Shown here piece by piece: positions 16,601 through 53,930 of a DNA stretch of 64,000 nt (positions within the stretch are counted from its first letter, which is position 1; each line of letters begins with the position of its first letter). The position numbers and the translations under genes are program-made. The notes beneath the pieces were generated by a model. That model did not search any database and was not told the origin of the DNA. It saw only the letters and a program-made list of their open reading frames with translations. The stretch covers positions 124,001 to 188,000 of the forward strand of contig JAFCMP010000010.1 in assembly GCA_017506865.1 (NCBI GenBank), written 5' to 3'. The stretch is from Tribonema minus. Taxonomy: Eukaryota; Sar; Xanthophyceae; Tribonematales; Tribonemataceae.

Positions 16601-17751
16601 GTGGCGCGACCGCGACGGCCTCTACCTGGCGGCGCTGACGCGCGTGCGCCACGCGCTGCTGCGCGACTTTGTCTGCGCGTACGGCGCCGTGGGGCGCGGC
16701 TTTGGGCGCGGCGGCAAGAAGCTGGGCGTTCCGACTGCCAACCTTCAGCCGGACGGCGACGGCCCGCTGCGGCAGGGTGCGTGCGCCGCCCGCGTCGCCT
16801 GCTGCGCGTCGCTGCCGGTGCTGGTGCAGTTCGCCCCGTTCTCCGTGTACTTTTTGTTTGCATCAAATTATCGCTTAGGGCGCGAAAACCCTAACCCTAA
16901 CCCTAACTGTAACCCTAAGATGGTAGATACTGTGTGCTTTGAGATGCATGTGTGGCAGGTTCAGCTGCAGGGCACCCGCAGCGCTTTGCAACCAGAGGCC
17001 GTCTCGGGGGCCAGCCTGATGGAGCTTTGTGGAGGCTGCTCGCAGTAGCATCAGATCGTGACCCATGTAGGAGCTACAGCTTCTCCTCTGCCACTTCACG
17101 GCCGATGATGCCTGCTGAAACGATTTGACTTGCTCTGGCTTGAGAAGCTGTCGGTGCTGCGCTGCAGAGAGGGCGCGCGCGAAAGGCCAAGCGCTGCAGC
17201 GGTGGTTTCAGCAGCAGAACATGCATCGTTCATTCTGGCAGCACTGACGTCCCGTCATTGCATTGAACCGCTGCGCGCCTGCGTGCATGCCCTGCCGCGC
17301 AGGCCTGGCGGACCTCCCCACGGGCGTCTACATCGGCTGGGCGCTGGTGGAAGAAGACGGCGCCGGCGCCGGCAGCAGCAGCGCTCAGCGCCCTGTCAAG
17401 GCCGTCGTCAACGTCGGCTTCTCGCCGACCTTCGAGGAGCGCAACCCCGAGAAGATCATCGAGGCGCACCTCATCGGTCGCGACCCAGCAACGTCGGGCG
17501 ACTTTTACGGCGCGCCCATGCGCCTGCTGCTCGCCGGCTTCCTGCGCCCCGAGCGGCGCTTCGCGGGGTTCCCGCAGCTCGTCGCGGCGATTCGCAAGGA
17601 CGTCGCCGACGCCGCGGCAGCGCTCGACACGGAGCCATACCGCGCGCTGGCGGAGCACGCGTTCTTTGCGCTGCCCGGCGGCGCCGCGTTGCCGGCGTGG
17701 CGCAGGGTGCCCTCGGACGGGGAGGCGGGCGATGACGCGCCGGCGCAGTGA
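13630..17751 (+). CDS. SAM-dependent methyltransferase fused to riboflavin kinase
   Basis: Six exons (13630-13935, 14270-14392, 15455-15604, 15932-16053, 16490-16776, 17303-17751) join in phase to give 478 residues. Residues 1-60 form a Ser/Arg/Ala-rich presequence, perhaps organellar. The first half is a class I methyltransferase: motif I LVDVGAGTG, then VIGVDLSGKML, a motif-II-like CGDFVEY, and EGGTVVISHPLG. The second half (from about residue 275) is riboflavin kinase: GAVGRGFGRGGKKLGVPTAN with the family's PTAN nucleotide/Mg2+ motif, LPTGVYIGWA, VVNVGFSPTF, an E in IIEAHLIG in the position of the catalytic Glu, GDFYG, and a closing helical region. It should phosphorylate riboflavin to FMN; the methyltransferase substrate is unknown. 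Introns 1 and 2 start with GC. Intron 2 is 1.06 kb and might hide a small extra exon in the methyltransferase half. Exon 5 bridges both domains, which supports a genuine fusion. Confidence 0.85.
16887..16918. repeat. Interstitial telomere-like repeat
   Basis: About five CCCTAA units (one altered to CTGTAA) lie inside the last intron (16777-17302) of the methyltransferase-riboflavin kinase gene. Confidence 0.8.
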
Positions 17752-18319: not shown

Positions 18320-20838
18320 TCAAGCGTTTTTGATGACGAGCTGCGTGCCAGCAGTGATGACGCCTGCTGCTAGAGGCGGAGAACGCCTGTGCGGCCGTGG
18401 CTGGGGCGCTTGATGGGGCCCCACAGGCCAGCGCACACGTGCGCTTGCGGCTGCGCTGGCGCAGCTGTCGCGCCTCCGCTTGAAGTGCGCACGAGGAACA
18501 GGGCGATGCTGATGGCACCTTCAACTGGCTCGCGCCGACGCCCCTAGTGCTGCACAGCCACAGGACGCAGCGCACTCAATAGGTTCAGAAGGGATCAGGT
18601 GGGGTCATGGTGTGCATCAGTATGTTGCCTGGAAGCGATGGCCTGTCCGGGACAGAAACAAAATGGCGCGTTTGAGATGCTAGCACAGTCGTTGCAACAG
18701 TCGCGCGCATCCGTTGTGCTCGACAAGCGCAAAGCAGGCGACATTGACGGACATGCAGCATGCACCAATGACTCATGACTTCAAATCACAGCCAATTTGC
18801 ACCTTCAAAGTCACGACTTGCAGATGACATGCAGTGGCACATGCGCAACACGGGGCGAGGCCTCACCAGAGCCGTGTCGGCGGGCTTGTCAGCATCGCTC
18901 GACTTGCCAGGGCGGCGCTGCGGCGTGAGCTTGTTGGTGATGCGGTTCTTGATGCTGACCAGCCCGCCGTAGCTGGGCGTCCTGTCCAACGTCTTGGTGC
19001 CAGCGCTGCTGCATCAGTTGGCGAGGGGGCATGTGACTGAGCTTGGCAGTTTGCTGAATGCCAGTGCGCCATCATGAATTTCCATTGCCGCAACCATCGT
19101 GACCTGCGCTTGAAGTATGTTAGCGGTGCAGCCAAGGCAAATGCTTGTCTTCGCTTCTGTACTCTCTGCTTCTTTGGTGTAAGTTCAATTTGCTGTGAAA
19201 CAGCCATGACTGCTGACATTCGCAAATCACATTGGGGCTCAGTTCAGTGCAGCCTTCTCGCAGTGTGCTTCGAGAGAGTTGATGCAGGTGGCGCACGATC
19301 TGGCACATGTATCGCTGGCTAGTGCCAGGATGTCACGATGCACAGCCGCAGCTTTTCATTGGGCATCACTGTCGCTGTTGCAGATGCTGGCGAGTCCTTT
19401 TATCCTGTTGTGTCACACCGCTGCTCGTTAATGGCCGTGCCATGCGCTTCTCCACCATATGCTGCCCTTTCTTACGCCACCAACACCCTGCCCCGACGCT
19501 CGACCATGCTCTCTTCATGACGCTCATTGCAAGCACTGCCTTCAACAGAGTGCGCCACGTACCTGCTGCCTGGGCTGGCAGCACCAGCTGCGCTGGGGGC
19601 CGGTGGCGGCATCGCCGGTGCCCTGACTGCGCCAGCAGGCTTCGGTGGCCGCCCTAGTGCCGCCGCTGCCGCGGCTGCTGCTGCCGCCACCGCTGCGCTG
19701 TCAGGTGCAGTGCCTGCACCGCGCTCGCGCACGCGCCTCAAGTTAATATCTGCAGTCGGCGGCGAAACCACAGACGCCGCCGCCGCCGCCACTGCCGCCG
19801 GCGACGCGGACGCCTGCGCCGCCGCCGCCGCGGCAGCCGCCGCTGCTGCCGCGACTGCCGCCTCGAAGCCGGCGGCATACGCTTCCGCCAGTGCCGACTC
19901 GGGCAGCGGCAGCGACATGGCCGGCATGGGCTGCCGTGACACTGCTGCCCTCGCAGCTGCGGCGGCGGTTGCGGCGGTGCCGTCCTCGTCCTGCTCTGGC
20001 GTCGATGGCGCGGAGCCTGTGGGGCTTGGTGTCGCCATGGCGCGCGCCACTGCGGTGCGGCCACAGGCACAGTTGGCTCGTGTGAGCGCGAGGTGCCGAT
20101 GCAATGCTCCGAGATGAGAAGCAATATGAGCAATGAAATTGTGGGTGCATGGCTGTGCTGCCAAGGCCGTCAGCACGCCTGAAATTGGAGGCTTGCTGCG
20201 TGTCTGTTTAACGAAGCAAACAGCAGTATGATGACATGACATACGCCCAGGACTTGACTGGTGCGATCACGGTTCCTGACTATGCATGTCCAACAGCATC
20301 CCGCATCTGCAGTTGTTTTTCAGCCGCCGCAGCAGCTCTCAACCCAACTGCTTTGAAGCAGGAGCTCAAACATGTAAGTGCATTCTTATGCTGTCGTCCT
20401 TCCAGAGTGTGTCCACCGCGCCACTCAGGAGCCCAGTGGCAAACGCCTGCAACCGACACGGTCCACCCGCAACACGATGACAAGCAACCACAACCACGCC
20501 ATCAGTGAACCCGCAGCACTCACGTGCATCCGCCATCGCCTCAGCGGCGGCCGCAGCTGCTCGTGCGCTAGAGTTCGGACTCATGGGCGCTGCCGGTATG
20601 TCCTTAGCCTTTGCTATGGCGGCCGTGGCGGCCGCGGCAGTGATTGCAGCCGTCTTAGCAGCAGCCTCGCGCGCGGCCAAATCAGCACTGGCCGACCCAT
20701 CATCCGTTTGAGCGCTGCTGCTGCCACCGTTCCTGGTGGCGCTGGCGCTCCTGCTGCCGTTGCTGGCGGCGGCGGCGGCGGCCTTGGTGCCTGCGGCGGT
20801 GGTGCCGGCATTCAGGCTGCGGCGTCGGCGCACAGACG
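18320..20838 (-). CDS. ARF-GEF block H: Ala/Ser-rich C-terminal tail
   Basis: The exons are 20524-20838, 19563-20049, 18867-19005 and 18320-18400, about 340 residues. The first two are Ala-rich low complexity with scattered Ser/Pro. The third is more ordered (RTPSYGGLVSIKNRITNKLT). The last exon uses the acceptor GCGCCCCAG|CCACGG and ends AGVITAGTQLVIKNA before the TGA at 18320-18322. Two other AG sites nearby (one at GCACAG, 18389/18390) would give different, longer C-termini, so the final 26 residues are less certain than the rest. Confidence 0.6.
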
Positions 20839-23800
20839 CTGCGAGGGGCGGCACGAACGGCGAAGCAGTGTACAGTAGCCTGGCCTCACAATCTGACGTG
20901 CGCTGCACATGAGGAAGGCATTGAACGCGCTAGCGGTGGAGCTCTGCGCCGCACCACACGCGCCAGTAGAGCACAAGATGCACATCGAAGCAGCAGCAGA
21001 GGGCACAGTCACATTGCGCACAGAAGCCAGCAGCCGTGCGTGTGTCCTACGCAATCGATGGCCGACTTGCACAATAGCTGAGAAGTGCCTGCCGGATGAG
21101 TTGAGGCTGTACTTCTGTCAGCGAGCAACGCCTGGTAGTGTGACCTCAAATGCAGACGCGGCCAGCAGGAATCATGCACAGCCGCTGCTATCACTCACCC
21201 GAGTAGCGCCTGTCGGGCGAGGAGAAGAGCTTGCTGGAGCGTCTCCGCTCGCGCACGCAGCCCTCCACCGCCATCTCAATGTCGTCCATCCACTCCTGCG
21301 CAGTAGCAACCGTTGTGTCAGAGTTAATGCAACAGCGGCGACCATCTAATGCGCAGCACAACCAGGACTCCCATGTTGGCTCCTGCAAGTGTTGCCAGGC
21401 ACGGGGTCTGCCAAGTCTGGGAGCCGCTGAGGACGAGTCGAACCCAGCTCGCAGCGAGCACAACACTTAGCAGTGCCGATATATTTGCATGAGTCTTGGC
21501 ATGGTGGGGGCTTTCCTGAATTGTATGTCTGAATTCATAGGAAAACACTAGCGTAAGGTACATGCACCGTAGGCATCACTGATCGCGCTGTGCAATGACA
21601 GCGCGCAGCTCGATACAGGCACTGCGCTTTCCAGCCCGCATCACCGACACTGCCGGGCCATGTCCACGAGCATGACTGAGGCCTCAGTGCAGCAGCATAT
21701 ACGTCAACAGAGACGGCGTACACAACCAGGCATCCGTTGAGGATTGCGTCACCTGTACTGTTCCACATGACAATGCTCAGAGCATGGCACGCAAATTTTG
21801 GCGAGAACTCAATGGTGTCGGTATCACTGCAACACTTCAATGGTCCACGTCAACAACGGAGTGGCACGTGACAGCTGTGAGCCAGTAGATGTGTAGTCAA
21901 TGCATGGCGGCAGTGCTCCAATTCACGTACCGCTTTGTCCTCGGCGGACTCCGCTGACACTGCGAAGCTCTTTTTGGGGTGGTGTATGTGGAAACGGCAG
22001 CCCTACAAGAACACACAAGGCACATGCAAACATTGTCAATTGCCGGGTGAAGTGCCTACATTGAACAGAGCCAGTTGCACAGGGCAATCACCCCAGAGTC
22101 TGCAGCAGACGCGTCAAGTGCTAAAGGTGTTGATCGTAATCATGTACAACTATGTTCACATGGCACACCACAACAATATCAGGCAACTTGGTTCAAGTGC
22201 TCCAATTAAGTGCTTCAAGCACATGCTTGCAAGTCATTAATCCTGTGGCTCTAGCCCGCGAAAACCAAACACATGCTGCAGTATCCGCACGCGACTCAGA
22301 CTTTGAAGCCATGCTTTACATGATGACGACAGATCTGAAGCAGCTTGGATCCGCGGATTGTACTCATGAGTTGTGCCTACAGCGTGAATACAACTGCGAC
22401 AGCACGAAGACCCGTGACATTGCATGAAGCAACGATATTGCAGCACGCGTCTTCACATGAGCCCTGCTATGCACACAATGCAGTCGCGCACGTCAAGGGG
22501 CGTGAAGGTGCTCCCTTGACACCATCAATTGGAGTGCACACTGGGGGTGCACTTGGCAGTTGACAAGTGCCGCTCACCTTCCTGTCCTGCTCGTCTTCTA
22601 CCCTGAGCATGCTGAGCTGCAGCTGCTCGTGGACCTGGTGGTGTTGTGAGCAACGGCAGCAGGTCAACAAAAAAAGGGGTAGTTGCACATCAGCAACACC
22701 ACCACCATGTAAGTGCTGTCCAGCATGACGTGCAACAAGGTCGATGTTTGCAGAATGCAGAGCTTGTTTGCACACAAGCAGACAACCTATACAATGCTCT
22801 ACAGACATAGAGTATGTTGCGCATCGTGCAGGTCGCATCGCTGCTGATCGCAACTGCTGAACGCCTCGCTCTGCAGTGTGGCCACCTCTGGTCAGCGACA
22901 CGAGTGCCATGGCCCCAGGCGTGAAGGTACTAGCAGCGCTCTATGACCATGCAACAGCGCTCAGCTCAGCCGCAGGCCCGCATCGTCGAACGCGCCCTGC
23001 TGCCACGCACCTGCCACTCGCCGCTGCCGAAGGCCTGGTGGGCGTACAGCAGCATGTCGGAGAAGAGGAAGAAGCGGTACGCGATCTTGCGGCCGCTGCG
23101 GCAGACCTTGACGAGCGTGCCCTCGCGTATGAAGCGCCGCACGCCATCCAGGACGTTGACGTTGCGCAGGCGGCGCGCGACGGCAACGAGCTCCTCCTGC
23201 CGGGCGATGGTGGCGCGCAGTGGTAGGGTTAGGGTTGGGTGAGTGGCGGGCGCTCTTGCGCTTTGGTCATGGGTGAGCGTCAGGGGACGCAGTCGTGGAG
23301 ATGTTTGCTGCGCGCACCTGTTGAAACGGGTGCCTAGAACGGGGTAGATCCCTAGAGCGCCCGTTTCTCATCATGAATAACGAAGCACTGCGAGCATATT
23401 GACAACACACACGGAATCAGAGCGCCGTGGCTAGGCCTGTGGGTCAGCGACTGAATGTAACGGCAACCAGCAAATGACACCGCTAATGGCGCACTGGTAG
23501 CACGCAGAGTATGCAGTGTGAGTCCATCGCCTGAGGCGCGCCAACTTTGGATGATACAGAGTTCTATTGCACTTTTTCGACTAGAGCAGACATACCTTGT
23601 TGTACATGGCGTGCACATCCTGCTCCAGCGTGCGGACCTGACAACGAAGGGGAAAGCGACGGTGGCAGGCTCAAGAGCTCAGATGGCGGTACGCGCATGG
23701 CTGAAGTGGTGCAGGCAGACATGGCCACAAGTCAAAGAGGTGTGCACTTGAGTAATTCAGAAACATGCATTGCGACGCCCTGCGCAGACTGGCGCATGCT

Positions 23801-26800
23801 GACGCTGTAAAAGCAGCAGCACGTATGCGCACATGCAACCCCCCCCCCCCCCATCAAATGAGCGTATGTATGACTCCTTTCTATGCTAGCCAACCAGCTA
23901 GTATTCTGCTGCAGCCACGTGCCTGCACTCGCCGGGTGGTACCCAGTCAACAAGTGGCGCACGTGCTGCTTCCTTCCCGCCGGACTCTCCGCAACAAATA
24001 CACATTCCGAGGCCCGTTTCCCCAATGCGCGAGTGCGCCACGCACCTGCTCGTGCACAGACGCGATGATCGCCTCAGCGTCTTCGGGCACGCTGCTGCCG
24101 GAGCCGCGGCGCGGCCGAGGGCCGTAGCCGTAGTTGGGAGCGTCGTCGTCCTCCGTCAGCGACCCCTGGGCGCCTTTCTGCGCTCCACAATTCGCATGCA
24201 ACGGCGGGCGGCGCACCGTGTTGAACTTGAGGTTTTAAACTTGCAGTTCGCGCGTGGTCGTCGTTGGTGTGCGCGGTCGACATGCGTTCGTGCCCAGGGG
24301 TGGCGCGCATTGAGAGCTCGCGAGCAGGCCATCCATGACATCAGGGTCTAGAGTTCGTAGCATGGCGCAGTATGAAGATATGATGAGCGCGCTGCAGCCT
24401 ACACGCGCAGCCCCCTTGTGCCAAGTCAACTCGAGCAACTGCTGCACGTGCGTGAGCTCGCGCTTTGCGCCCACGCCGGCGCATTGCACAATTCCACAGC
24501 AGAACTTGAGACATCGGGCCCTGAAGTTACACATTCAAGGGGCAGACGTGCGCCATAGACCTTTCACACTGCGCGTGGCCTGTGCCCTCGCACCAAGCAC
24601 CCTTTCGTGCACTCACCATTCTGGTGGAGATCTTGGCGAGGCGTGTGGCAAATGCCTCGCGCTTGGTGCTCTCGCCGAGGAAGACGGATGTGCACAGCGC
24701 GTACTTGACGACCTGCGGAGAGACAGAGGCGGCCAGCGCGGCGATGCCACGTAAACATGTCACGCACAGTCAAATGGCAGCGTCGCGCACGCAGAGGTCC
24801 CTAAGAAGCGGCCAGCGCTGCGGTCACGCAAAACAGGCGTGGCATGGTGGTCCAGCATGAAACAAGTTGTGTACATGCACTATGCAACAATGCACGCACG
24901 CGTCGGGGCATCAGGCATCTTTCCTCGTCGCACAGCGTATCATGGCAGAAATGCCGACGCTTCCGAGCCTGCGCGACGTGTTCAGCACAGTCTCTACTGC
25001 TGATGCCAAGCAGCGCACGCGCACGCGCGCGTGGCAATGTTGAGGAAACAGCCAAGCCATCTGTTTCCTGCACGACCACACTGGGTCACGATTAGGGTTG
25101 AGTTGAAGTTAGGTTTGAAGTTGAGTCACTCACCTCGAGGCATGCGACTACGCTGTCCGCGTCCATGCTTGGACGCTCCAGCACAGAGTCCACAGCACCC
25201 AGGAACTGTCCGCAAACACAGGCAGCGCACGTGATGATGGCCGCAGGGGCGAGGGGGGGGAGGGAGGATTGTGGTTTAGCATCTGTGCAACTGGGTGGGC
25301 TCTGAGCAAACTGGTGAGACAAGTGTCTGGGCCACGCAAAACCCTAATTCAAGCGCTGCGCATCTGCTCGCAAGCGACGAGGCGACTCATGACACATCGG
25401 AGCTGGCATCAGCGGCTCCTGGCAGCTTTGCTGCGGCTGCATGCGCCACAGCACGAAGGTAACGCGCCAGGCGCCAGAATGCGCAGCGAGCGCAGCATGC
25501 ACGCAGCGGCGGCCGACTCACGTGGAACCAGCTCGCATCGAACATGAGCCGCACCAGCTCCAGCGACAGGCTCGTGTCGAGGCCCACAAGAACAAAGCGG
25601 TAGCCCACCATGCTCAGCGCGCGCAGCAGCTCGCCGCCCTGCGTGCAGCCCTGCAGTAAGCGTCACGGCCAGCGGCAAAGAGTGAAGGGAGGGGGGCATG
25701 GGTGTTGAGGCGCTGTTGCCGCGTGTGAGGGCGTGAGAGGGGGGGGGCGTGGTGTGGAACAGACCCAGCCGAGCAAGGCAGTGCTCTGGCACAGGTTTGG
25801 AGGCAGGGGTACGGATGGTGTGCTTGGTGTGCATTTCAGATTTGTGTACACGTCCTCAATGAGCAGATCGTTTGATAGCATGCGTCAGTAACCAAGGCAG
25901 TTGGTGGGTCCTCATGATGAGGCTTCGCATCCGCGCAAGGTGTGCTAAAGAGGATGCAGCAATTCAGCACTTTGTCACGTGGGGCAATCGTAGTGTGCAT
26001 CTCACTGGGCAAAGGCCGTGTGCCGCAATGACTTGCCTTGGTGAGGTCCACAATGAAGGCGTCTTGCAGATCCGCCAGCGTGACGGGCGGCGCTTGTGCG
26101 GCGGCGGTGGCGCGCTGGCGGATGGCAGGCGATAGAGTGCAGGCGACAACGGTGAAGCTCGCGATCGAGGCTGAGAAATATCTCATTTGGCGACATCATG
26201 CGGCAGCAGAAGGTGCAGGCCGCAGCAGAGTGCCAGCAGCGTGCAGCCTGACCTGCTTGAAGTTCATCAAGAAGTACCGACATGTACCGACATGCAGCTC
26301 TGTTGACCAGGTGGCAGTTTGACGTCCCAATGTGAATGCCAGGCGGAGCCAGCATCGGATCAACACACAACACCACATGTACCATACGAAATAAAGACGA
26401 GGCCTCAGAGCAGTTCCACTCATGCCGCGCAACAGCAACCTCGCGTTTTGAGCTCCCAGACACCGGTCTCACAGCACCATTTCGCTCCATTTCGCGCCGT
26501 CAGCGGCAGTCGTCGCACTGCGTCGCCTCACCTGCAGCGCTTGCGTCGGCGTATCCTGCAGCAGCATGGCGATGGGCTGCGCCTCGATGCTGTCGTAGAT
26601 CTCCCCCAGGTACTCGGGGGTGAGCTCGCCGGCGCCCTCGGCGACGCCGCGCAGGTTCTTGATGAAGTCGTGCTGCGCGAGCGCGCGCGGCGATCGGGAG
26701 GGGCAGCGGTGAGGCGCGCGTGCAACGCTGCCGACAAAATGGTCACATAAGTGTACTAGGCACGACTGCGCACGGGCGCTGAGCTTGTGATGTACAGTGT

Positions 26801-29800
26801 GGGTGCGCGATGCTTGCGCAGTGTGTGACGTCGGGCTGAAAGTGGGCATGCGAGCTGGCTATGCTTGTGCACACTGATGGTGCGGCACTGCCACCACTGA
26901 GAGAAAGAGAAGCAATCGCCAGTTTTGAATGCAATTCAGCCATGATGGCCCTGCTGCATGGTCACCTCGCCCGCTGCTGATCGAGTGAGTAAGCACGGTG
27001 CTGCGGGGTCCTGTACGATGCACATCTGTGCCTGCGACTTGAGTGCGCTGGGCAGCGCTGCGAGGTCGATTCGCACGCAGCACAGACACGTTCAGCCCGT
27101 CGCAGCATGCGTCAGCAGGGGGTAGGTTTGAGATCGGGGCTGGCGCGCACGCCGGCCGGCGGCACTCGCCTTGCTCATGCGCTTGCGCTTGCGCGCGTCC
27201 ATGTTGGCCTTGTGCAGGTCCGTGTTGAGCATGATGATGGCGTACGACAGGACGAACGGCGCGTCCGCCGACGTGAACGGGCAGTGCTGCGCGTTGTCGT
27301 GGAAGAAGCACTCCGCGAACGCGCTGAGGAGCCGGTCGATCTGCGCGCGGTCGACGCAGTGCGCGGCCGTGCTCAGTACCAGCAGCATGGGACAACTTCA
27401 ATGTGCGTGATTGGGGCATGCAAAAAGGCATGAGTTGCGGTGCAGCAGGCACACTGCGATTGCGCTCAGCGGCTACTGGTCTGCGCAGTGTGTCAGACAG
27501 GTACGGTAGGGCACAAATTGTGCAGCACGACAGCATCACCAACTGCAACGCACGGCCACTGACGTGCCAGGCATCTGAAGCCATGCCACATGCATCAACA
27601 CGCCGGCAAGGTTGCACCACGCGCTCGGGCGCAGTTGACAGGGGGCAAGGCGTGTGCGCAACAGCGCTGCGACGCGCCCTCACGCAGCCTGACGTCCGGC
27701 TCATGACGCGCTGAATGTGCATGGGCTGCATGCACTGTCACGCCAGTTGAAGATGCCCTGCACGTGCTTGAGCTGCGCATGTCACACATGCCTGAAGCAG
27801 TGCAAGTCGCCATGCAGTCTGACAGTGTGCACAGTCTGTGTGCTGCAGGACGGCGTAGGAAGCGGTACTAAATAGAGGTTTGAGGTGCGTTCTGGCTGGC
27901 GGTTGAGGGTACCTGCGGTCAGCACGCGTGTGCGAGTGCAGGATTCCACTGCTGTGTAGCAGATGCAAACGTGTAGCTGCAAGACACCTGCTGTGCGCCT
28001 ATAGCGTGGGATGCGAAGTGCATACTTGACAAACGTTACATCTGCAACGCACCTTCTGCGCCTCTCCGGGTAGCCGGAACCCGCTGTTGGTGAGCAGGTG
28101 CCGCAGGGCCTCCTCCAGTGACATGCCGTGGAAGTTCACAGCCCTGCAGAGGGGAAGGCACCAGCACCAGGAGTTGAGTCACAACCGGGGAGTCTCAACT
28201 GCCGGCTGTGCAAGACATGAGCAGAGATTGTCACAGAGGCTTTGCAACAGTGCTCAGGAGCACCACACATTTCTGCACATCACGTCGAGGGTGCCTCACC
28301 TGATGTACTGCAGCCTGATGAGTCGGAAGTAGTCCGTCCCGTCCAAATCTGGTTCAGAGAGGAAGTCCCCTATGCTACCTGGATCCAGGTCTGCTTGGTA
28401 GAGCCTGCCGAGGGGGGGGGGGGGGGGGGGGGGGAACTCAGCGATGACATCAGCACACTGCTTCAGGCAGCACAGCGAAGCCGCGATCGCGCCCTGCGAC
28501 CAGGTGTATGGTGGCCTCACAGAGGCGTCGTGATGCACCCGGCAAGGGTGTCGGAGCTCAGAATGTGTACTTCTATGCAGTTTGTGTACTGCACGGTCTG
28601 AACAAGCTACACGATAACTGCAGCTCCACCAGCTGTAGCTCAAACTGTGAGCTGTACTCCAAGTATGACAGGAGGTCGGCGCAGCATGCGCGGACGTCTC
28701 GGCCGCTCCTGACCGTGCCTGGTCATAATTGGACACCCACTTGGACAGACGGCGGATGCGACCATGTGACATGCTCAGCAAGCGCGAGCAGCGGCGGTGT
28801 CTGCGCGCACGCACAATGCTCACGAACTCCCTCCAGAAGAGCGGTGACAGCCAGCGCAGCAGAGCAGGAGCATGCAGCCGTGCTCGGTGCGGCGCGCAGA
28901 GCACGCACCTCAGGAAGTTTGCAATGTCCCGCGGGGTGTCGCTGATGAAGCTGCTGGCCACCAGGTAGCGCACCGCCTTCTTGAGGCCCTTCTTGTAGTA
29001 CAGGTCGAGGGCCTGCGGAAGGGGCAGCGCGCCACAGTGATTGTGCTGAGCAGCGGATGCCTCAGCAGCAGCACTTCTAGTGGAGGACCTGAGCACAGGC
29101 GGTTGAAGTGATGCTGCAGGCTGTGTACGTAGTCCGCGGCGCTCAGGGCATGCTTCAGCCCATGTGCATTTGGCATCATGCACGCAAAAGCAGTGCCTCT
29201 GCTCCCTATAGAGAGATGACTGGCTCCTGAAGGGAAGCGCCTGAAAAAGCATGTGCTTCAACCTGCCTTGTACAGCATGCCGGGTGCAACTGCGCGTCGG
29301 CCCGAAACTGTGTGACGCGCTTGCGCATCCTTGCGCATCCCTGTGCTATCACTGCCGCGCGCGACTCGAAGCACACGCCTTGAGCCAGCACAAAGCTTTG
29401 TGCTCGTGAGCGTTCCCGCAAAGCCGTTCCGCACTCTGCGCAACCTCAGACCCACAAAGGCCACACTAGTTTCCGCACACAATATTAAGTTTTGAACATA
29501 AGCGGCGCACACTGAGATCTGCAGTGATGTGCGCTTCAGGCGGCTGTCAAGCTTCAACTTGAAGTTGCCGCTGCGGCGCACCTGTCGCATGACTTCTTCG
29601 GCGCGCTTGTGCAGCTCGCGTCGGCGCTTGAAGCTGGTGGCGCGCCGGTGCCGCATGGACTTGGCTGCGTGCAGCAACGCGAGGGACGGGATGGCGACAG
29701 TTGTGAGCAGCGCTGGCTCTTCGCAGTGTGAGTCAACACCATTTGAATTTGTGCATATGGTGCTGCATCCTGTGGAGGAACCTCGACAAGGCACTCATTC

Positions 29801-41800: not shown

Positions 41801-44800
41801 AAACCACTGAAGCAGATATATGTCATAGCAGTATACATTTCATATATGGCCCGCAACACCTTAGCATGTGATGGCACTTGCTCACCTGTCTGATGTATAG
41901 ACAGCTGAGCAGCAGTGACAGGAGATCTCTGGGCTTGCCAGCCACAGGTTCGCCGCCCTGCAGCCGCAAGATCACATGGTGCAAGCAACATCAGGGCAGT
42001 GAAGACAACCAAATGCCAATGTTATGCTTACAGCACCTGCTTGCAGCCAAGCTATAAACGGTCAGCTCAAAACACTTGAAGCATAGCATGAGCAGAGCCA
42101 GCAGCTGGGCCACCAAGCCCCGCAATCTCCCAACATGTGCCGTTGAGAGAAGAAGCAACAAGGGTGCGTTCAAGATGTCATTGTTGCCGTCCTTCTCTCC
42201 ACATGGTGCCTGAAACGGTACGAGAACGATGATCCGTAGGTGACTGTGATAGACGTGGTGCTCTGCTGGTGATGGACTGCCTCAACAGTGCATCCTGCGC
42301 CTGACACTTCGAGCAACAAGGCGGTCGGTATCTGCCGGCCAGCCAATGCAAACAGGCTGCGAGCCTGAAGCCGACGTGCACGGGAGCCGAGCATCTGACA
42401 CCATCTTGAAAACCGCACTCACAGGCAACACGCCTCTCAAAGCACTTTAACGCAGAAGTTGACGCAGTGTGCGACTGGAGCGTGCGCACAGCGTGTGCGC
42501 GCACCTGCGTGACCACTGCGACCGTTTCTGGCAGCGTGTTCCGGTCGGACCGCATCTCGCGGCGCAGCGACGGCGGCATCGCCGGCGGCAGCTGGTGCGG
42601 CCGCCGCCCGATGGCGCTGCCGCCGCCGCCGCTGCCCGCCGCCGCTTGGCCCTCGCTGCTGGCGCCCTCCATGAGCTCCAGGGACAGGAGGTCGGGCTCG
42701 CTGCGCACGGTGACGGCGCGCCTGCATGGGAGGCGGCGTCGTGCAGTGGTTTGGTTGGTTGGAAGAGGCGAGATCAGGTGGGGGCGGCGGACAGAGCGCG
42801 GTGTGTGAGAGACGTCATGAGCTGTGCGGAGAGCGGAAGCACTGACACGACTCTACGCCTCTGGAGTACACGTATTGAATATTTGTCACGCGTGCATGTT
42901 GCGCTGGAGGCGGTGGCGGCGACATAGTGACGTGCATGCGTGCTCAAGGCACGTGCTGCGTGAGGGACGCACGGGCACGTGGGCTCAAAAAATGTCCTTC
43001 TTGGCATGCGCTGCAAGGCGCCGCTCCGGTTGCACGTGAGACACGCTGCAGGAAGCAGCGCGAGCAACTGACGCAACAGCCCACAAGAACCTCACCGCCA
43101 TGTGCTTCATTGAAGTACCAAGTACAGGGGGGGTCACGATATAAGAACGGGTCCGTCACGCCAACTTCACCGCTCCTATACCGTGACCGCTCCTATATCG
43201 TCCTTGTGCTTAAGTAGGGTTAGCCCTAACCCCAGGCTAACCCTAACCCTAGACCTAGGGTCTGAAGTACTTAAGTAGGGTTAGTGTGCCAACAGTTGAA
43301 GTTGGCTACGCATTAAGCCGGAAAGCAGCCGCACAGTGCGCTATACGCTGTGACTGATCGATGCGCGCTTGAGCGTTGTTGAATATCACGCAAAAGCCGC
43401 TGTTCAGGCATTGTTCTTGAGGCGGCTAGTGGTAGGTGGACACGATATAAGAGCGGTCAGCCCCGTGCAGCACCAAACCGCTCTTATATCGACCAGATCC
43501 GTGTTCAGCCGTGAGACCGCTCTTACAATACCGTGACCGCTCTTAGATCGAGCGCTCTTATATCGTAGCCGTCCCTGTACACAAACATGAAGATGCCTGC
43601 AATGCATGACCAACACGGCCGTCAAAATGCACCTGTTGGCAGAGCTGCCATCGCCGTCAGGGCCCACGCTGACGCTGCGCCCCGCGCCCGCCGCGTGCGC
43701 GCCGCCGGTTGCGGACCGGGCGTGCGCGTCCCTGCGCGGCAGCGCGCTGGGGGACCCGTCCCGCCTCGGCGCACCAGGCGAGCCCTCGCGTCTGAGCCGT
43801 GCACACGTTGATTGCGGTACGGTGAACTCACGATCAAAAGGCAGTGTAGGGTGGGTTGGGTTCACGTGTGCGCTGAATGGTTGAAACACTGCAGGTATGC
43901 GGTCAGGGCATGAAGTGGCGCCAAACCTTTCGCGCGCAACTGATATCTCGTGCCAACCCTTGTTTCACTCGTGGCACAACAAAGTGGCCAAAGTGGCCCG
44001 CCAGGCTCAGTCATCAACAGACAGCAGCAAATTGTATCTGGTCGAGCGCAGCAGCAGCGGCAGCACCATGTGCCAGCTGCGACACGCACCTCAACTCAGA
44101 CTCCATGGACGGTGCGGACGGCGCTCGCGGCAATCCAGGCGGCAGGCCCGGTTGCGCTGCCGCCACCGAGGGGGCATCTGAGGGCGCGGGGCTGCTCAGC
44201 AGGGGTGCGACGGTGGTGGCATCGCTCTGCAAGAAGAGGAAATTATTCACACAGGTGGAGGGGCAGCGTCGTGTCAGCTCTGCAGCCTGCGCGTCGCTCA
44301 CGTGACGAACGCAAGTTCATGCGCAAATTATGAGATTATTTCAGCGCTGCGCCGCTGCCGCTGCGTTTGAACGCCGGGCTGACGTCGCGGCGACCGCAGG
44401 TGAAGTATGCGCGAGGAAGTATCCGCTGGCAGCGGCACGGGCTGCGATGCCGCGTCCACGCCACACGCCACGCAGCTGACGACTATCAATCCAGCTCTCC
44501 GCGTACGCACAAACAGTAGCAGCACAATCGCAGGCAAACAAGCGATGAGGCAGCGCTCAGCACATACGTGTGACGGCGACGGGGGCCCGCCGTCCCCCGC
44601 GCGCGCGCCGTTCGCGGCCGCGTCCGGCAGCGTCACGACCGCGGGCGCGCTCGCAAACTTGGCGTGCGCCGCCGCCGCCGCCGTCGCCGACATTGCCGCG
44701 CCGTTCTCCGCCGCGGCGGCGGCGGCCAGGCCCGTCATGGTGGCGATGGAGGATCGTGCGCTGCTGGCGCTGCTGCTGATGTCCGCGGCAGCGCTCGTGG

Positions 44801-47800
44801 GCGTGCCCGCCGGCGCTGCGCGGGCGACGCGGTGAGGAACGGACGAGGGCGACGGAGCATGCGCGGCAGTGTGAGGGGGAGCGGCGGTTGATGGCTTGCC
44901 GAGTAATGCTGCTGCTGCTGCCGCCGCCGCAGGGGCGGCCGCCGTCTTGAACGTGGCTGCTGAGCTGTCTGTTCCCTGTGTCATGCATGCCCGCGTATTG
45001 TGCAAATACACTTCTAATGGCGCAATGCATTGGACCATGCGGACGATCGTGCCCATCTGCCTGCTGCGTATTACCTGCGAAATGCCCGCGTCGTCATCAA
45101 GCATTTGTTTGCTGCAGCCCTGCGATACGTGACCTGGTCAGCCTAGATGCGCAGCCCTGCAAGAGCGGGTGTCGGGTCAATGCAGCGCTGAGCACTGTCA
45201 CTATAACAAGAGCGGCGACTCACCGGAGCGTCGGTGACCGGAGCTGCCAGAGCTGGCCCACCGCTCGCTGCTGTGCACGCGCTTGTGGAGCTGTCCCTGC
45301 GCGTGATGAAATAAAAATGCAGTGCTCAGCTCAGCACTTTTGCTGTGGGTGCACGCACGCATCGTGTCAGGGGGAGCACCGCAAGCGACGGCGCGCGCAA
45401 CGCGCTACGCGCCGGGCGACGCTGAGAGGGGGCCGAGCCGTCGGACGCCATACGAAGGCAATTGACACGGCGCGTGCCATGAAGAAAGTGCGCGTGACCA
45501 GCTCGGCGGCGGCGCCGTCGCTGCAGCCCCAACACATGGGCACATATGTGCACACGCGCACACGCACCTGCGAGGAGTCCTGCGACGCGGGCCAGCCCCG
45601 CTCCGACGCACTGCGGCTGTCGCTGATGCTGCGGTTGGAGGCGGACAGGTCCACGGCGCCGACCGCCCAGTCGGCGCCCATGGCCGGCAGCGACGTCTCC
45701 TCGTGCGCGCGCAGCGCGCGGATGTTGAGCTGCGCACGAGGCGGCGGCGATAGGGGGCGCAGCGGCGCGCGGTGAGCGCATGGTGTCTCTGCAGGCGCGT
45801 CCAGCGCTGCTGCTGCGGCGTCGCAACATGTGTGGTTTGCTCTGATGGGCTGCGCCATGCGCGCATGAGGCCAGCTCGCGCGACTGCAGCAGCATCCTCA
45901 TATTCGGCAGGCGGGTGCGCTAGCGCGGGCCGTCAGCGGGCGCGCGGCGCAGCTGGCACAGCACGACCGCGGCGAGGGGCGGCTCAAACATGGCCACCTA
46001 TGCAAGCGCGCTGATGACCGCATACTGCAACAGCCCGCGCTTCACTTCAGAGCGCTCGGAGCTCCGCACGTCGTTCAGCGCAGCTCGTACGAGGCACGGA
46101 TAGCGCAGAGCTGCAGCAGCGCTCACCAGGTGCTGCCGGTACGCCAGGAAGATGGGCGTGCCGCCGGTGCCGTGGTTGAGATCCGCTTCGTGGCCGGAGG
46201 GCGACGTCTCCAGGGCGTTGTAGCCGTACGGCGGCGCCTCGTCTTTGCGCGGCTGGTAGATGACAATGTCACTGCAGGAGTCGCACACGGCCGAGGGAGA
46301 CGCGGTCAGATTGCGCGAAGACAGTGCACAGGGCTCAGCTGCACAGTGGTGTATGGCAGCACTTGCAGGCCAGCAAACGAGCTGCGTGCTAGGACACGAC
46401 AGCATGCTGCAAGCCTGTGTGCATACAAGAGGTGCGCCACACCTCCTCAACGAGTCAAGTTCATGGGCGTATCGAAATCTTCGTGTTGGGCGACTGCGAC
46501 ACACGCCGTGCGCAGAGGACAGGCGCCGCCACTGCATGGCTTCTGCCGGCTGCGCGAGCTGCATCGCCGCTCGGTGCACCTCATGCGCTGAACGTGAGCA
46601 TACAAGAGCATAGCGGGTTGATAGCGGCACTTCTCAAAGGACGCGCGGCGCAGCAGCGTCGACCCGCAAACAAGCGCTATCTCGCCGGCAGTTCCGCACT
46701 GACCTTATGGGGTTACCGATGCCCTGCCGCGCGCACAGGTACACGCGCTCGCCGTTGGTGCCGTTGTTGAGGTCCACGGGCTTGGACTTGCGCCGCGTGA
46801 TGCTGTAGCCGGGGGGTATGGACTCGCCCCTGCAACCGCGCGGGACGGCAGCACACAAAGGGGGAACAGGCCTGTAAGCGTCTGAAGGTTTTGCCGAGAG
46901 TGTGTGAGAGGCTGCAGCATGTGCATCACTCCTTGCTTGGCACCAACCAGCAAGAGTACGCACACAGCTGTAGCCGAGTATCAGCTGGTAGGCTAGCATA
47001 GGCAGCACACGAAGACGTTTGAACTCCGGCATCCAGTGACATGAACGGGATGGCTTGAAGTTGGGCACATCCACCTTTGACAGGCCCAGTGCGTCATGAA
47101 GTTGAAGTCGTGGCAGAAGTTGAAGTCGAGGCCAGCGCAAGAGAAAAGGGTGTCGTGCTGAGCAATGCAGCTGACGGGGCGTTGGGGCTTTGTGAGCGCA
47201 GCAAAGGTGCGTGGTCCTCTCTCCAGCATCTTCGTTGACAGTGACAAATGCTGACAGCAGGGTAGTGACACGCGCCTTGCACAGGTGTAAAGGCCGCGAC
47301 CCTGCCAAACCGGGCGCACGCAATTCTTCAAGGAGCCCTCCCCTCTGACGCTGTGGTGTCCACGTTTTGGGCTCTCTGAACCACAAAATATTGCCATGAC
47401 ATACCGGTTGAAGCGTGTGGGCAATGCAGACCTGCGTCGCGCAGAGCTGCCAAGGGCAGACATGATATGCTGTTGCTGCTCGCCGGCAATTGGTGCAGCA
47501 GCATCCGCAAGAGCCTCCGCAGCTTCTGGCAATTCCCTAAAAATCTCATGTCACCGCGCCTCAGAGTGCGTATCAGCGGCGGTGGCACATAACAACTGCT
47601 GCGTGATCCCCTCGAAATCTCACGCGTCACTGAGCGTCAGTAAGCGCATCAGCATCAGCATCAGCTGCCCTGGTACACATCGCTGCCGCTGCTGCTGCCG
47701 AGTCACTCAACGACTTGTGTGACTCGCGTCAGCGCCGAGCGCGGCCGCGCTCACCTGTCGGGGAAGACGACCGCAATGCCGGTGATGCATGTGCGCGGCC

Positions 47801-50800
47801 ACGACCGGTCGCGCTGCACGCAAAGGTACAGGTACTGGCCGCCGGCGCCCGCGTTGAGATCTGCCTTGCGGCCCGCTATGGTCAGCCCCACCTGCAGCGG
47901 CGGCAGCGCACAGTCCGTGTGTGTGTCAGACACTCCGCCAGCACACGAAGCATGTGTGCTGGACACTTCAACGAAGACAGTAAATGCTTGATGCGCAGAG
48001 ATGGCAATCAAGTTGAGGTCTGCCTTGCGGCCCGTGACCGTCAGCCCCACCTTTAGCGGGCGGCAGCGCGCAGTGGCAACGATTGACAGGGGTAGTTGGA
48101 GGTATTCGTACTTCCGAAGTACGTCTATTCAATTGTGAGAGGTGCCGTGTGCGCGTCGGACACGCGGCCAGCGAACGTAGAAGCGTGCGTGCCGGGTACT
48201 TCAACAATGACAATTGAACGCTCATTGCGCGCAGCCTGCAATCAAGTGTCTGTACGGGTGCGATGCCTGCGCTGCTGCGGCAGGTGGGCTGCTGTGCTAT
48301 GCTTGTGCCCGCGCCGGCCCGCGTTGCTGACGTCACCGTGGTAAGCGCTGGCTCATGGCAGGGGTATCACAAAGTACTACACTGCAAGATGATGCCTTTG
48401 TCCTACATGATCGCTTCACATGTCACCTCCAACCGCTGCAGTTGTCACACGATCCATGCGTCACGCAGCGCTTTGCGCAAAGCACGGCATACGCCAGCAG
48501 CGCGACCCTGTAGTCATCAACATCCAGTGATTGGCATTGGCAGCACCATGCAGTGCACTTCTGGATCAGCTGGAAACAGGGCAGCATGAATTCCCTCATC
48601 TTATGCGCACACAACACTGCTGATGGCAATATGAGCCAATGCCTAGGAAGTAGTGTGGCTGCAGCAGCAGCAGCGGCAGCAGCCTGGTAAGCACCGACAG
48701 ATCTCTACATCAAGGGCACCGAAAGCAACCGGCCCGGGCCTCAGGCACAGCAGCTGCCGCAGCGCATAGGTGCAACCCGCAGCCCGCACGCGCTACCGTC
48801 CTTGCAGCTTGCGTGCACAGCACCTGCACAAATGAAGAACCACAAAGCTGTAGTACTTCACAGCACAAACCTTGTCGTAGCCCTCGGGAACAGGGTCGTT
48901 GCCGTGTACGAGGGTGATGGCCACAATGGGCGGCAGCTCATTCGCGCGCTGCTCCGTGGCGATCGCAGAGAACGCGCCGCTGCCGCCGTCAATACTGCAG
49001 GGGGGGCGGGAAATAGCAAGCGCATTACAGGTCGTGGCATCAGCCTACCAAGGGGCAGCAGCCGGGGAATTGCGAAAGCAGTCAATGCCTTGGCACCTGA
49101 AGAAACACGCAATACAGGCGACACGCATGCCCGACATCAAAGTATGATGAAAAATCCAGCTGAAAATGAGCGGATGAGCTTCGTCAATAACGAGCAACAG
49201 GGGTTCTGGGCTGCTCATTTATCCTGTAAACGCGGTCTGTCGCGGCTTTGCCGCCTGTGCCAGCATTACGTTGATGCATCACATTCCAGCACTGGAGTTG
49301 TGCACGAACTTCAACACCATGTGGTTTGAAGTACAAATTCATTGATAGTTTCTGCTGAGCACTGACCAGGATGCCGGCCGTCGGCGCATGCTCGCGCGCG
49401 GCGAGAAGTTGCGCATGTTGTGCGACAGCGGCGTGTCGCCCTGCTGGCTGCCGGCGCTGGTGGTGTTGCTGGAGAACAGGCCTGCGCGGACGGCACGAAG
49501 TTTGCGCACGCGCATCGGTGATTGAGCGGCAAGCGCTTGGCGGGCGTACATGACCGTGCCAAACAGTTTCAGCGCAGCACGTTTTGACAAACATGCTTTA
49601 TGACAATGGGCGGGGGCGCGGGCGCCAGCGGGGGGCGCATGGCGCGTATGCCTGCTCTACCGTGAAGCTTGATGGCTATGGCACCAATCCATGCAGCAAG
49701 GGGCGAGTGATGCTGTTTTTGGTGAGCTGCCGTTGCATACGCCCAAGCAGCATTGCGGCTCAGCTGCAGTTGACGGCAAATCGCGCACTCAAATGCTGCT
49801 CGCGTCGCGAACAGCCGCCCAGGGGCAGTTGTCGCCCTGCGCGGCTGAAAGCTCAGGCGCTGCTGCGCATACGCCTCAGTGAGATCATACTGCGGCTTGG
49901 GTGAGAGTTAGTTAGCGAGCAACATCGCTCCAGATGCTGCAGGCGACCCGCGGTGCAGATTGCCCGTGGAGGTGAACATGTTCCAACTTCAAGCCTCCGA
50001 CGCCTGCGCACCCTGCACGCTGCCACCTGCATCCCGTCTCACCCCTTTTGCCCTCCACGTGCGCACGCACAACTGCACCAGACAAAGGCGCCAATCTGCA
50101 CAGCTCAACCACGTGCCGAAGCACTGAAAATAGCATGTACCTGCAGCGGCGGCGGCGACGGCCGCCGTGACGCTGCTGCGCCGGCTCGGGCGCGGCGTGG
50201 AGCCGCCCTTGCTGCTCGCGCCGCCGCCGCCGCCGCTGCCGATGCCGCGCAGCGACGACGCGCCGCCGCCGGAGCGCAGCCGCGGCGATCGCGCTGAAGT
50301 CGAGCGCGGCGTGTCGCGCGCCGAGGCGGACGTCGAGGCAGCGCCGAGCGATGAGGAGGAGGAGTGCGCAGAGTCGCTGCGCAGGAAGCGCGGCAGCGCC
50401 TGCGTGGACGCGGATGACGCGCCGCCGCCGAAGTCGGCCGAGCGGCGGCTGCCGTGGAGAAGGGGGTGGCGGGATGGAGGCGAGCGCGACGGGGGGGGGG
50501 GGGGGGGGGGGGGGGGGATGTGTGAATGCGGCTGGCAGATGACTAGGCGCTGCAGTGAGCGATGCGGTGGATGTGGATGCGCAAGCTGAGCTGCAGCGCT
50601 CAGCGAGGTGTATGCTGCGCAGCGGTCACCACCAGCGTCCACACACAGACGTCAAGGAGCGGTAGGCAGGCTGACGGCGGGGTTGGGACGGGCACAGCGA
50701 TGGCTCTCAAGCCTATTGTTCCCCCCCGTGCCCCCCCCCCCCCCCCCCTCTGGCAGTACCGCCTGCATCGCCTCGGTCCACATATCCACAAAGCGTGAGG

Positions 50801-53800
50801 GCTGCATCCGAGGCGTGCAACACCAGACACCCCGGCACATGCTGCCCAGGGACACGACACAGTGACAATGTACTCCTCGACCGCTTCGCAGACGCAGCGC
50901 TGGCGTCCAAGCTCAGCAGTACTTAGAGTACCTGTGAGACGATGGCCCAAAGTCCGCGCCCGTGACACATGAAGTCTGGGGCTATCAGGGGCTTCGGTGC
51001 AGCAGAGTTGATTTCCAAAAGGGGGTGCTCATTCCTGTAGTCACCGCTTCCGCTGTACCTGTGAGAAGACGGCCCGAAGTCCTCGCCCGCCTTTGGCACG
51101 TCCACCTCCTCCACCTCCAGATCGGCGACGGAGTAGTAGCTGCTGCGCGGGCTGGCCTCCGGGCCCGCGACGAGGGGCGAGCAGCCGTCCACGCTGCTGC
51201 CGTTGGCGCTGCGGCGGAGATGAGCGGCGCGGCGTGCGTGATGCTGCTGCGAGTGTGACTGATCAGGCCAGGAGTCAGCAGACGCGCTGCCGCTGCTGAC
51301 GCGATGACATGTGGAGTGACGCTGGGCGCTGCGTGGCAATGCATGAGACGGAGGAGCGCTGCACATGGCTGCCACTTCTGCTGCGACTCTAGTGACGGCG
51401 CGCGCAGCAGCGTGAGTGTCTCGCTGCCAACACTGCAAGCGTTGAGGCACCTGGCGTCACGCAGACAAGCAACGGCACTGACGGCCTTTCATGCGACCTC
51501 GACGTGTTGCACCACATGACACGAGAATCCCCGCAGCTGCAGACGCGCGCACTGAGGAGTTGAGGGAGCGCCAAACGCGAGACAGGCGCCGTGACTCTCA
51601 GATGATGCAAGTCTGTGTTGAGGTAGGTGCACATGAGCACCCCTAGGCTCTCAAGCGCGGGACGCAGCCGCTGTGACGGAGACCGCTAATGGCCGCTGCT
51701 GGGCGCGCGTCAGCTCCGTGAGCTGAGCGTTGCGCACAGCTCGCGAGAAAGGGGCTGGTTGAGTGTGCGCGCATTGCCCTCAAGCTCAAGCGCGCGTGCG
51801 CGGCGCGTGTCGTGTCAACAGCGCGTGCGCGCTGCGAACGCACCGGCCAGTCACAACAGCGACTTCCCCATCACCACTGCCAGTAGAGGGGGCCACGTGG
51901 CCTGGTGGCGTCATCCATCGCTGGTCGCTGAGGTACTACATATGACCCCCCCCCCCCACACACACACACACGCGCCCCCTCTACTGCTGAACCACACAAG
52001 CAGTGTGGTGACCATGGAGCCATGGCACGCGTTACACTGGCACACTGTCGTCGCACTGGTGCGCTGAGTGCCTTGCTGCCCGCCTAAAGGAGCCCATGCT
52101 GCTGCTGCTAGACTACCCTCATGCAAGAGTCGGCCTTGGGTGGGAGCCTACTGCACCGCAAGACGCAGCCCATGCATGCTCCTTCAGTCTGAGGAAAACC
52201 TCGCCGCTGTTAACGGATACCAGCGTCAGCGGCTTGTTGAAGTTCACAGTACAACTTCAACAAGGGCTCTCCGTCCGCAACGGCCTGTTGCTCACGGTCT
52301 GAAGCCGCCGAGACCTGGCGCACGTTGACAGGTCTACTACGTCAAAGGACTATCAGAGCGCAGAATCTCCGGGAGCCGCTTTTGACCGCTGCCAGCCGTC
52401 TCGTACTTGTATTAATTTCGCTTCGTCTCGTAACCAAACAGCAGAAACTGGGCGATCCTCAGCACCGGATTTTACTCCGATGAATTGCGGCGGAAGCAGG
52501 TGCAATGGCAAGTCTACTCCAAAGTACAACAGCAAGAGGCGAGTCCCGTCGCACGCGCACCTGCGCTGCAGCGCCCACAGGCGCCGCGCACCCCCCACAG
52601 TCCTTGCCAGCGCCGTCAGCACACTGCGTCACAATGCAGCTCTGCACGTTCGCACGTACACATCATCAAGAGGCGACTCGCCGTCACGCGCGCACCTGCG
52701 CTGCAGCGCCCGCAGGCGCCGCGACCCCCCCACAGTCCTTGCCAGCGCCGTCAGCACACTGCGTCACAGTGCAGCTCTGCACGTTCGCACGTACACATCA
52801 TCAAGAGGCGACGCTCCGTCACGCGCGCACCTGCGCTGCAGCGCCTGCAGGCGCCTCGACCCCCCCTGCAGCACCTGGCCAGCGCTATCAGCACACTGCG
52901 TCAGAGTGCAGCTCTGCACGTTCACGCGTACACATCATCAAGAGGCGAGTCTCCCTCGCACGCGCGCCTGCGCTGCAGCGCCTGCAGGCGCCACGACCCC
53001 CCCCGCAACACACCGCGTGACAAGCTCTGCACGTTCACGCGCATACTTCCACAACATCAAGAGGCGACGCCCCATTACACTGCGCAGGTGCGCTGCAGCG
53101 CCTGCAGGTGGCGCAACCCCCCCGCAGCGCAATCAGCACATCGCGCGACAAGCGCTGCGTTCGCGCGTATACTTCTAAAACATCAAGAGGCGACTCTCCG
53201 TCGCACGCGCAAGTGCGCTGCAGCGCCTGCAGGCGCCGCGCCCCCCCCGCAGCGCCATCAACGCATCGCGTGACAGGCTCTGCACGTTAACGCGCATACT
53301 TCCACAACATCAAGAGGTGACTCTCCGTCACACGCTCACCTGCGCTGCAGCGCCTGCAGGTGGCGCGACCCCTCCGTGCTGTCGCCCGTCACCACGCACG
53401 CGACCTGCGCCGACAGCTCCGCGCGCACCGCGCCGCCCGTGCTCGCCACCAGCTGCTGCACCGCGCGCATCACGGCGGCCTGCAGGAGACACCGGCAGCG
53501 GGGTAAGAGCAGATGACACGTGTGCGTGAGGACTCACTCAGCACGGAATGGCCGTGGCTGTCGCTACGGCGCACAGTGCTTGCGCCCCACCCGAGACACA
53601 GCGCGCCGTTGGTGGCAGTGCTCAGCGGGTGTGAAGAAGCGACATCATGAGGCGCAGCCCTGGCTCTCATCGCGCATTCGCGTTTCTGTGCGACCCTCGC
53701 CAGCATCTGCCGACGGCGCCTCGGCGTCGCCTGCGCCATTGGCGCGCAGTGCGCGTCAGTGCTGCTGCGGCGCGCACTCGAGCATGCAGCACGCTCAATC

Positions 53801-53930: not shown

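Follow-up and report, generated by a model that had tools for sequence, protein, structure and literature searches.

A predicted large ARF exchange factor in Tribonema minus with an MABP domain before and a RhoGEF-type PH domain after its HUS-Sec7-HDS1 core

ARF guanine nucleotide exchange factors (ARF-GEFs) are grouped by what surrounds their Sec7 domain, and a locus of Tribonema minus raises the question of whether exons for an MABP domain and exons for a HUS-Sec7 exchange core, lying one after the other on the same strand, belong to one gene or to two. The window analysed here is a 64 kb stretch of contig C10 (positions 124001-188000) from an assembly of 158 Mb in 554 contigs. The genome has 92 chlorophyll a/b-binding matches, which mark a phototroph, while the best PDB relatives of its light-harvesting proteins single out no group. 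Our analysis indicates that the locus probably holds one gene for a large ARF-GEF of the BIG/GBF kind, predicted to carry an MABP domain and a long low-complexity linker before the exchange core and a RhoGEF-type PH domain after HDS1.

Gene model and domain content

We predicted exons with a small, splice-aware finder using generic site weights, run on the minus strand. The first codon table was drawn from 29 kinase and seven Sec7 matches of the same genome (7285 codons, GC3 0.81); the window's own Sec7 exon was one of these seven training matches and was excluded again for the codon-bias test of the exons. An enlarged table of 11001 codons took in other exons of the same gene, apart from the disputed interval between 46.1 and 41.3 kb. 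With the first table the finder returned a single minus-strand gene that spans roughly 55.9 to 18.1 kb, and the enlarged table gave nearly the same exon backbone. The minus strand scored 899 bits against 158 bits for the plus strand, with a codon table that had been trained in part on minus-strand exons. Once tiny and repeat-derived exons are dropped, 47 exons from 53479 to 21199 form a single open frame of 2009 codons (Table 1). All elements that the initial annotation had placed on one strand do lie on this strand, and the joins it had proposed (46127/45729, 45568/45296 and 45224/44815) are the same as those of the finder. In the 48-exon list, the 5' splice sites are GT in 43 and GC in four of the 47 introns, and the median intron is 497 bp. 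Elsewhere in the genome the finder recovers ordinary genes of GBF-like, BIG-like and MABP-DENN types.

In the first model 48 exons were tested for synonymous codon bias against stop-free non-exon stretches, and 42 of them were beyond p 0.05; among the tested exons that were kept in the 47-exon model, 41 of 45 pass. Three exons were too short for this test, and two others (44226-44090 and 43791-43633) were found later and lie outside it. Six exons failed (55905-55756, 43596-43527, 41957-41886, 28404-28300, 25205-25134 and 22002-21931); failure does not make an exon false, because 28404-28300 belongs to the Sec7 domain. Several candidates were dropped from the final model: 43596-43527 (also called as 43574-43527) for its overlap with the repeat at 43122-43580, the tiny exons 43872-43866, 41630-41616, 40014-40006 and 19569-19563, and further 55905-55756 (or 55893-55756), 20790-20728 and 18072-18064.

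Table 1. Features of the predicted gene and the repeat within it, in window coordinates.
Feature	Position	Strand	Exons or parts	Basis or remark
N-terminal low-complexity exons	49367..53479	-	53479-53340, 51208-50969, 50448-50141, 49481-49367	start codon tentative
MABP domain, four exons	46127..48994	-	48994-48871, 47891-47755, 46829-46704, 46271-46127	three pseudo-repeats
Ala/Ser/Arg-rich linker, six exons	42505..45729	-	45729-45568, 45296-45224, 44815-44568, 44226-44090, 43791-43633, 42721-42505	gene model, one open frame
Repeat with terminal inverted arms	43122..43580	.	arms 43122-43149 and 43553-43580	in the longest linker intron
Region at the place of DCB	37693..41957	-	41957-41886, 41243-41108, 39725-39643, 39080-38985, 38630-38445, 37803-37693	
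HUS region	30759..36829	-	HUS box NYDLD in exon 32477-32379	PF12783, E 3.1e-15
Low-complexity exons between HUS and Sec7	29513..30334	-	30334-30212, 29664-29513	codon bias p 0.025, 0.015
Sec7 domain	26532..29012	-	five exons, motif FRLPGEAQKIDR	PF01369, E 3.2e-50
HDS1-like region	24617..26114	-		8ucq alignment and paralogue z scores
DH-type last helix and RhoGEF-type PH	21199..24177	-	24177-24046, 23637-23596, 23196-23011, 22634-22578, 22002-21931, 21295-21199	PF22697, E 9.4e-12 for the piece
Probable C-terminal exon	18867..19008	-		codon bias p 0.007; join to 21199 tentative

The protein opens with about 267 residues of low-complexity sequence, and all four of the exons that encode it show synonymous codon bias (p<0.0004). 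The MABP domain follows. Scanned alone, this piece matches the MVB12/MABP family (PF10240) at 30.3 bits (E 4e-07, cut-off 22), while in the whole 2009-residue protein the match (residues 290-368, E 1.5e-4) reaches 21.9 bits, 0.1 under the cut-off of 22. The best solved relative in a PDB search is Mpf2Ba1 (E 7.7e-12, residues 32-148 of 159), which we take to carry an MABP domain. One MABP fold is built of three pseudo-repeats, and this accounts for the three MABP repeats reported in the initial annotation: the assignment to MABP holds, with PF10240 and Mpf2Ba1 behind it, and the count is to be read as one domain with pseudo-repeats rather than as three domains.

After the linker comes the region at the place of DCB, where codon bias is at p 0.04 or less in five of the six exons and weak (p 0.14) in 41957-41886. 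The DCB profile that had been suggested for the spliced protein gave no result there, as the Pfam model PF16213 matches neither the DCB piece nor the whole protein; as a control, the BIG paralogue at C123 matches this model at 26.1 bits, barely above the cut-off of 25.6. Against three paralogues of the same genome the region gives z scores of 0.0, -0.1 and 1.0, so that calling it DCB is a guess from position. The HUS region behind it (residues 1109-1265 of the spliced protein in the Pfam match) gives z scores of 9.4, 19.0 and 12.2 against the three paralogues. A PDB search of the combined DCB-HUS piece returned nothing better than E 0.039. The HUS box, which had been noticed from the start, is present, and its sequence NYDLD is a single change away from the rule N(Y/F)DC(D/N) published for this motif (PMC553965).

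The Sec7 domain proposed for the locus is likewise present (170.7 bits, cut-off 22, residues 1492-1676), and its alignment contains FRLPGEAQ, the glutamic-finger motif, which has a catalytic role. With both the domain and the catalytic motif evident in the sequence, the Sec7 core is a putative agent of GDP/GTP exchange on ARF. In a Sec7 tree of 12 rows the window sequence is unplaced, with an end branch of 2.26; it sits on a long branch, and the tree gives no class assignment.

A single phmmer alignment carries the Sec7-HDS1 piece (11-323 of 329) along the SEC7 chain 8ucq (E 8.5e-35), and the piece also matches BIG1 (1.8e-30) and BIG2 (1.9e-28), with Gea2 the last of 31 rows. Compared with two BIG paralogues from this genome, the HDS1-like part gives z scores of 5.2 and 5.1, and compared with the GBF paralogue it gives -0.3; in the comparison with z 5.2, one shuffle out of 200 scored as high or higher. 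The HDS1-like region of the initial annotation is therefore supported in sequence by the 8ucq alignment and by its likeness to the BIG paralogues, without a Pfam match of its own. No part of the window protein matches the HDS model PF09324 in Pfam, a search that very divergent HDS2 or HDS3 domains would escape and in which no separate HDS3 model was seen. The same model matches the BIG paralogue at C123 after its Sec7 domain (5.3e-29), and the post-Sec7 piece of the GBF gene of this genome has no match to it either. What follows HDS1 here, instead of an HDS2/HDS3 match, is a helix and a PH domain.

In the whole protein, residues 1892-1985 match the SOS1/NGEF-type PH model PF22697 (E 5.9e-10). 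Among solved structures the PH piece is closest to FARP1 (3.4e-14) and FARP2 (4.8e-13), and the PH domain of GRP1 reaches only E 0.096. The FARP1 and FARP2 match begins well before the PH domain proper, in a stretch that presumably corresponds to the last helix of a DH domain; the model has room for such a helix, without room for a whole DH domain. The C-terminal PH domain that had been predicted is borne out by PF22697, and its type is that of RhoGEFs (FARP1), not that of cytohesins. The intron between the HDS1 and helix exons is 439 bp long. At 24177-23196 (minus strand) the final DH helix alone appears to be kept with the RhoGEF-type PH domain, as if the remaining DH had been lost.

One gene or two adjacent genes

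The initial annotation had joined the MABP and Sec7 halves into one protein on the strength of splice phase. The intron phases from MABP through the six linker exons to the DCB-position exons are 0,0,1,0,2,2,0. With 32 of the 47 introns of the model in phase 0, agreeing phases are poor evidence of a single gene when taken by themselves, and the single-gene reading stands on the linker exons and on the break test described below, not on phase as a sufficient proof. The alternative is two adjacent genes on the same strand, the first for a protein with MABP and a low-complexity tail and the second for a HUS-Sec7-HDS1-PH ARF-GEF. We think this unlikely, though it has real points in its favour: same-strand genes can stand about 700 bp apart in this genome (GBF to NAE1), low-complexity linkers are hard to call, and four of the six linker exons contain an in-frame ATG at which a second gene might begin.

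Two genes would need a hidden last exon and a hidden first exon within a gap of no more than 911 bp. Across the interval from MABP to DCB, the gaps between exons are 397, 271, 408, 341, 298, 911, 547 and 642 bp, to be set beside the median intron given above; should the weak exon 41957-41886 not be real, the gaps of 547 and 642 bp merge to 1261 bp, which then becomes the limit. The gap of 911 bp (43633-42721) contains the repeat, and without the repeat it is of ordinary intron size. The exons themselves also speak against a boundary. All nine exons from 46271 to 41108 have a positive synonymous score (near zero in 44226-44090 and 41957-41886), and reading on in frame to the next stop gives a negative score for every one of them (near zero for 45729-45568); the in-frame upstream stretch is negative in eight, with 41243-41108 slightly positive. 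From these scores of exons and flanks, none of the nine looks clearly like a last or a first exon: the read-throughs of the linker exons look like intron, and of the four linker exons with an ATG, three are coding-like ahead of it.

The break test sets the best path without a break beside the best one that is forced to stop and restart, and gives the cost in bits. In its first form the disputed interval cost 5.9 bits, against 3.7 at one true boundary and 9.0-18.2 in five within-gene spans, an indecisive result that leaves weight with the two-gene alternative. The codon table was enlarged after two missed linker exons had been seen by eye, and controls were then added. In this later test the disputed interval cost 8.3 bits. 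The 11 boundary controls, of which two are natural and nine are artificial joins of gene ends and starts with inferred starts, cost -6.7, -4.6, 1.9, 1.9, 2.4, 2.9, 3.3, 3.3, 3.3, 3.8 and 8.0 bits, and the 29 within-gene spans cost 7.6-15.9 bits; the latter overlap, many share break sites, and 20 of them come from the gene in question and presuppose that it is one, the other nine being from a BIG gene. The disputed interval thus falls near the bottom of the within-gene values, just 0.3 bits above the top boundary control, a closeness that counts on the side of two genes. Its second half, from 42721 to 38630, costs 11.8 bits to break. Outside the interval, forced breaks cost 11.6 bits between 53479 and the MABP exons and 18.6 bits between HDS1 and PH. 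As the finder wrongly fused the GBF gene and the NAE1-like gene beside it, merging by the finder alone proves nothing. The later break test speaks for a single gene without deciding the matter. Taking it with the exon evidence, we consider it likely that MABP, HUS, Sec7, the HDS1-like region and PH all belong to one predicted protein.

Relatives in the genome and likeness to known systems

Searches of the genome went exon by exon with the best candidates scored, and the counts of loci are to be read as minima. Sec7 was found at at least six loci (11 matches): the window gene, BIG-like genes at C510 and C123, a BIG-like piece at C323, a GBF-like gene at C75 and a gene at C268 that is nearer to cytohesin, the BIG-like and GBF-like classes being assigned from the HUS match and by eye. 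MABP was found at at least three loci (seven matches), which are the window gene, a gene at C109 (119001-137000) with the canonical MABP-uDENN-DENN layout of a Rab-GEF, and another MABP gene at C113:403453-404696. No second combination of MABP with Sec7 was seen in the genome among the best candidates scored. A whole-genome search with the MABP family gave 0 matches, the window gene included, because that search reads exon by exon. In two pattern scans of viral contigs, the 11 matches from each included no relative.

The two other MABP loci allow a further reading, in which the MABP exons of the window are the decayed remnant of an MABP-DENN gene beside an ARF-GEF gene. We regard this as highly improbable, since the MABP exons keep their codon bias (p 0.008 or less in all four), the domain is intact across its three pseudo-repeats, Pfam gives no match to uDENN or DENN behind it, and the exons are not close copies of those at C109 or C113 (39-43% identity).

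As a single protein, the window product is most like the BIG/GBF exchange factors (SEC7, BIG1/2, GBF1, Gea), with which it shares HUS, Sec7 and HDS1 in the same order and among which SEC7, then BIG1 and BIG2, are the best solved matches of its Sec7-HDS1 part. It differs from them in adding MABP before and PH after, in its altered HUS box, in its missing DCB match and, unlike the BIG paralogue at C123, in having no PF09324 match. Cytohesin, BRAG and EFA6 likewise have a PH domain C-terminal of Sec7, whereas the window protein also has HUS and HDS1, with HDS1 standing between Sec7 and PH. Its PH domain is of the RhoGEF type and best to FARP1 and FARP2 rather than to GRP1, and the genome has its separate, cytohesin-nearer gene at C268. 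The DENND4/Crag Rab-GEFs resemble the window protein in having MABP before a GTPase exchange module, and in DENND4 MABP precedes DENN with a long disordered linker (PMC12311110). In the window protein this module is the ARF-directed Sec7 in place of the Rab-directed DENN, and Pfam finds neither uDENN nor DENN in it, while the C109 gene has both. The FARP, SOS and FGD RhoGEFs (DH-PH) share with it the PH domain and the preceding helix, but its model leaves no place for the other parts of DH.

A fusion of MABP with an ARF-GEF was not found described in the literature searched, in which no paper brought MABP together with Arf and guanine nucleotide exchange. MABP and Sec7 were co-mentioned in an ARFGAP1 study, with one occurrence of each in the text retrieved. 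So far as this literature goes, the combination of MABP, HUS-Sec7-HDS1 and PH appears undescribed.

Possible function and genomic surroundings

The MABP domains of MVB12 and MPEG1 bind negatively charged lipid, with a basic loop that contacts acidic membranes (PMC6753088), and by analogy the window's MABP domain is a putative binder of acidic membranes. The PH domain may bind a phosphoinositide or a partner. Published work on Sec7 shows that its DCB/HUS unit accelerates the activation of ARF on membranes and that HDS1 contributes to autoinhibition (PMC4764562), and HDS3 is required for GBF1 on membranes (PMC10512945). We propose that MABP would read acidic membrane lipid and PH a phosphoinositide or a partner, and that together they would bring the Sec7 core to membranes where both signals meet, or release it there, so that the HUS-Sec7-HDS1 core could load ARF with GTP. 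The pair would in this way replace the targeting done by the C-terminal HDS domains in BIG/GBF, in a manner analogous to MABP standing before the DENN exchange module in DENND4 proteins. We suggest more tentatively, and with some doubt, that the protein may represent, in this lineage, a large ARF-GEF class of its own, one that dropped HDS2 and HDS3 and reads acidic lipid through MABP and phosphoinositide through a RhoGEF-derived PH domain before activating ARF.

If this is true, one protein would unite an exchange core with an MABP domain from the world of Rab-GEFs and ESCRT and a PH domain from the world of Rho-GEFs, and lipid-binding modules taken from other families of GEFs could redirect a core known to work with an HDS2-HDS3 tail. 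It is intriguing to consider that such a protein would be a natural test both of the role of the later HDS domains and of whether MABP serves GTPase exchange factors in general as an address tag.

Some features of the surrounding sequence deserve mention. The repeat in the longest linker intron contains telomere-like CCCTAA runs, and for its stretch 43150-43560, 40 of 160 candidate matches in the genome were scored, namely itself and 39 others at 87-93%. Introns often hold a copy of a piece of a neighbouring exon, mostly of the exon end, as at 48050-48012 in the window. Such copies were seen for 3 of 48 window exons, 8 of 12 at C123, 6 of 8 at C268 and 3 of 12 at C75, where two of the matches, like some of the others, are low-complexity. 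Of 11 rows compared at the splice sites, seven matched themselves; in the other four, the copies extend 5, 9 and (gapped) 35 bases beyond the 5' splice site, and one spans the 3' splice site. On the plus strand at 52300-53530 there are long open frames of a repeated unit, probably a minisatellite. Among the neighbours, named by eye, PP2C-like phosphatase exons lie upstream on the same strand (63672-59958), and the plus strand carries peroxiredoxin-like exons at 6974-8536 and, at 15455-17751, methyltransferase-like and then riboflavin-kinase-like exons, which the finder joined and which may be one gene or two.
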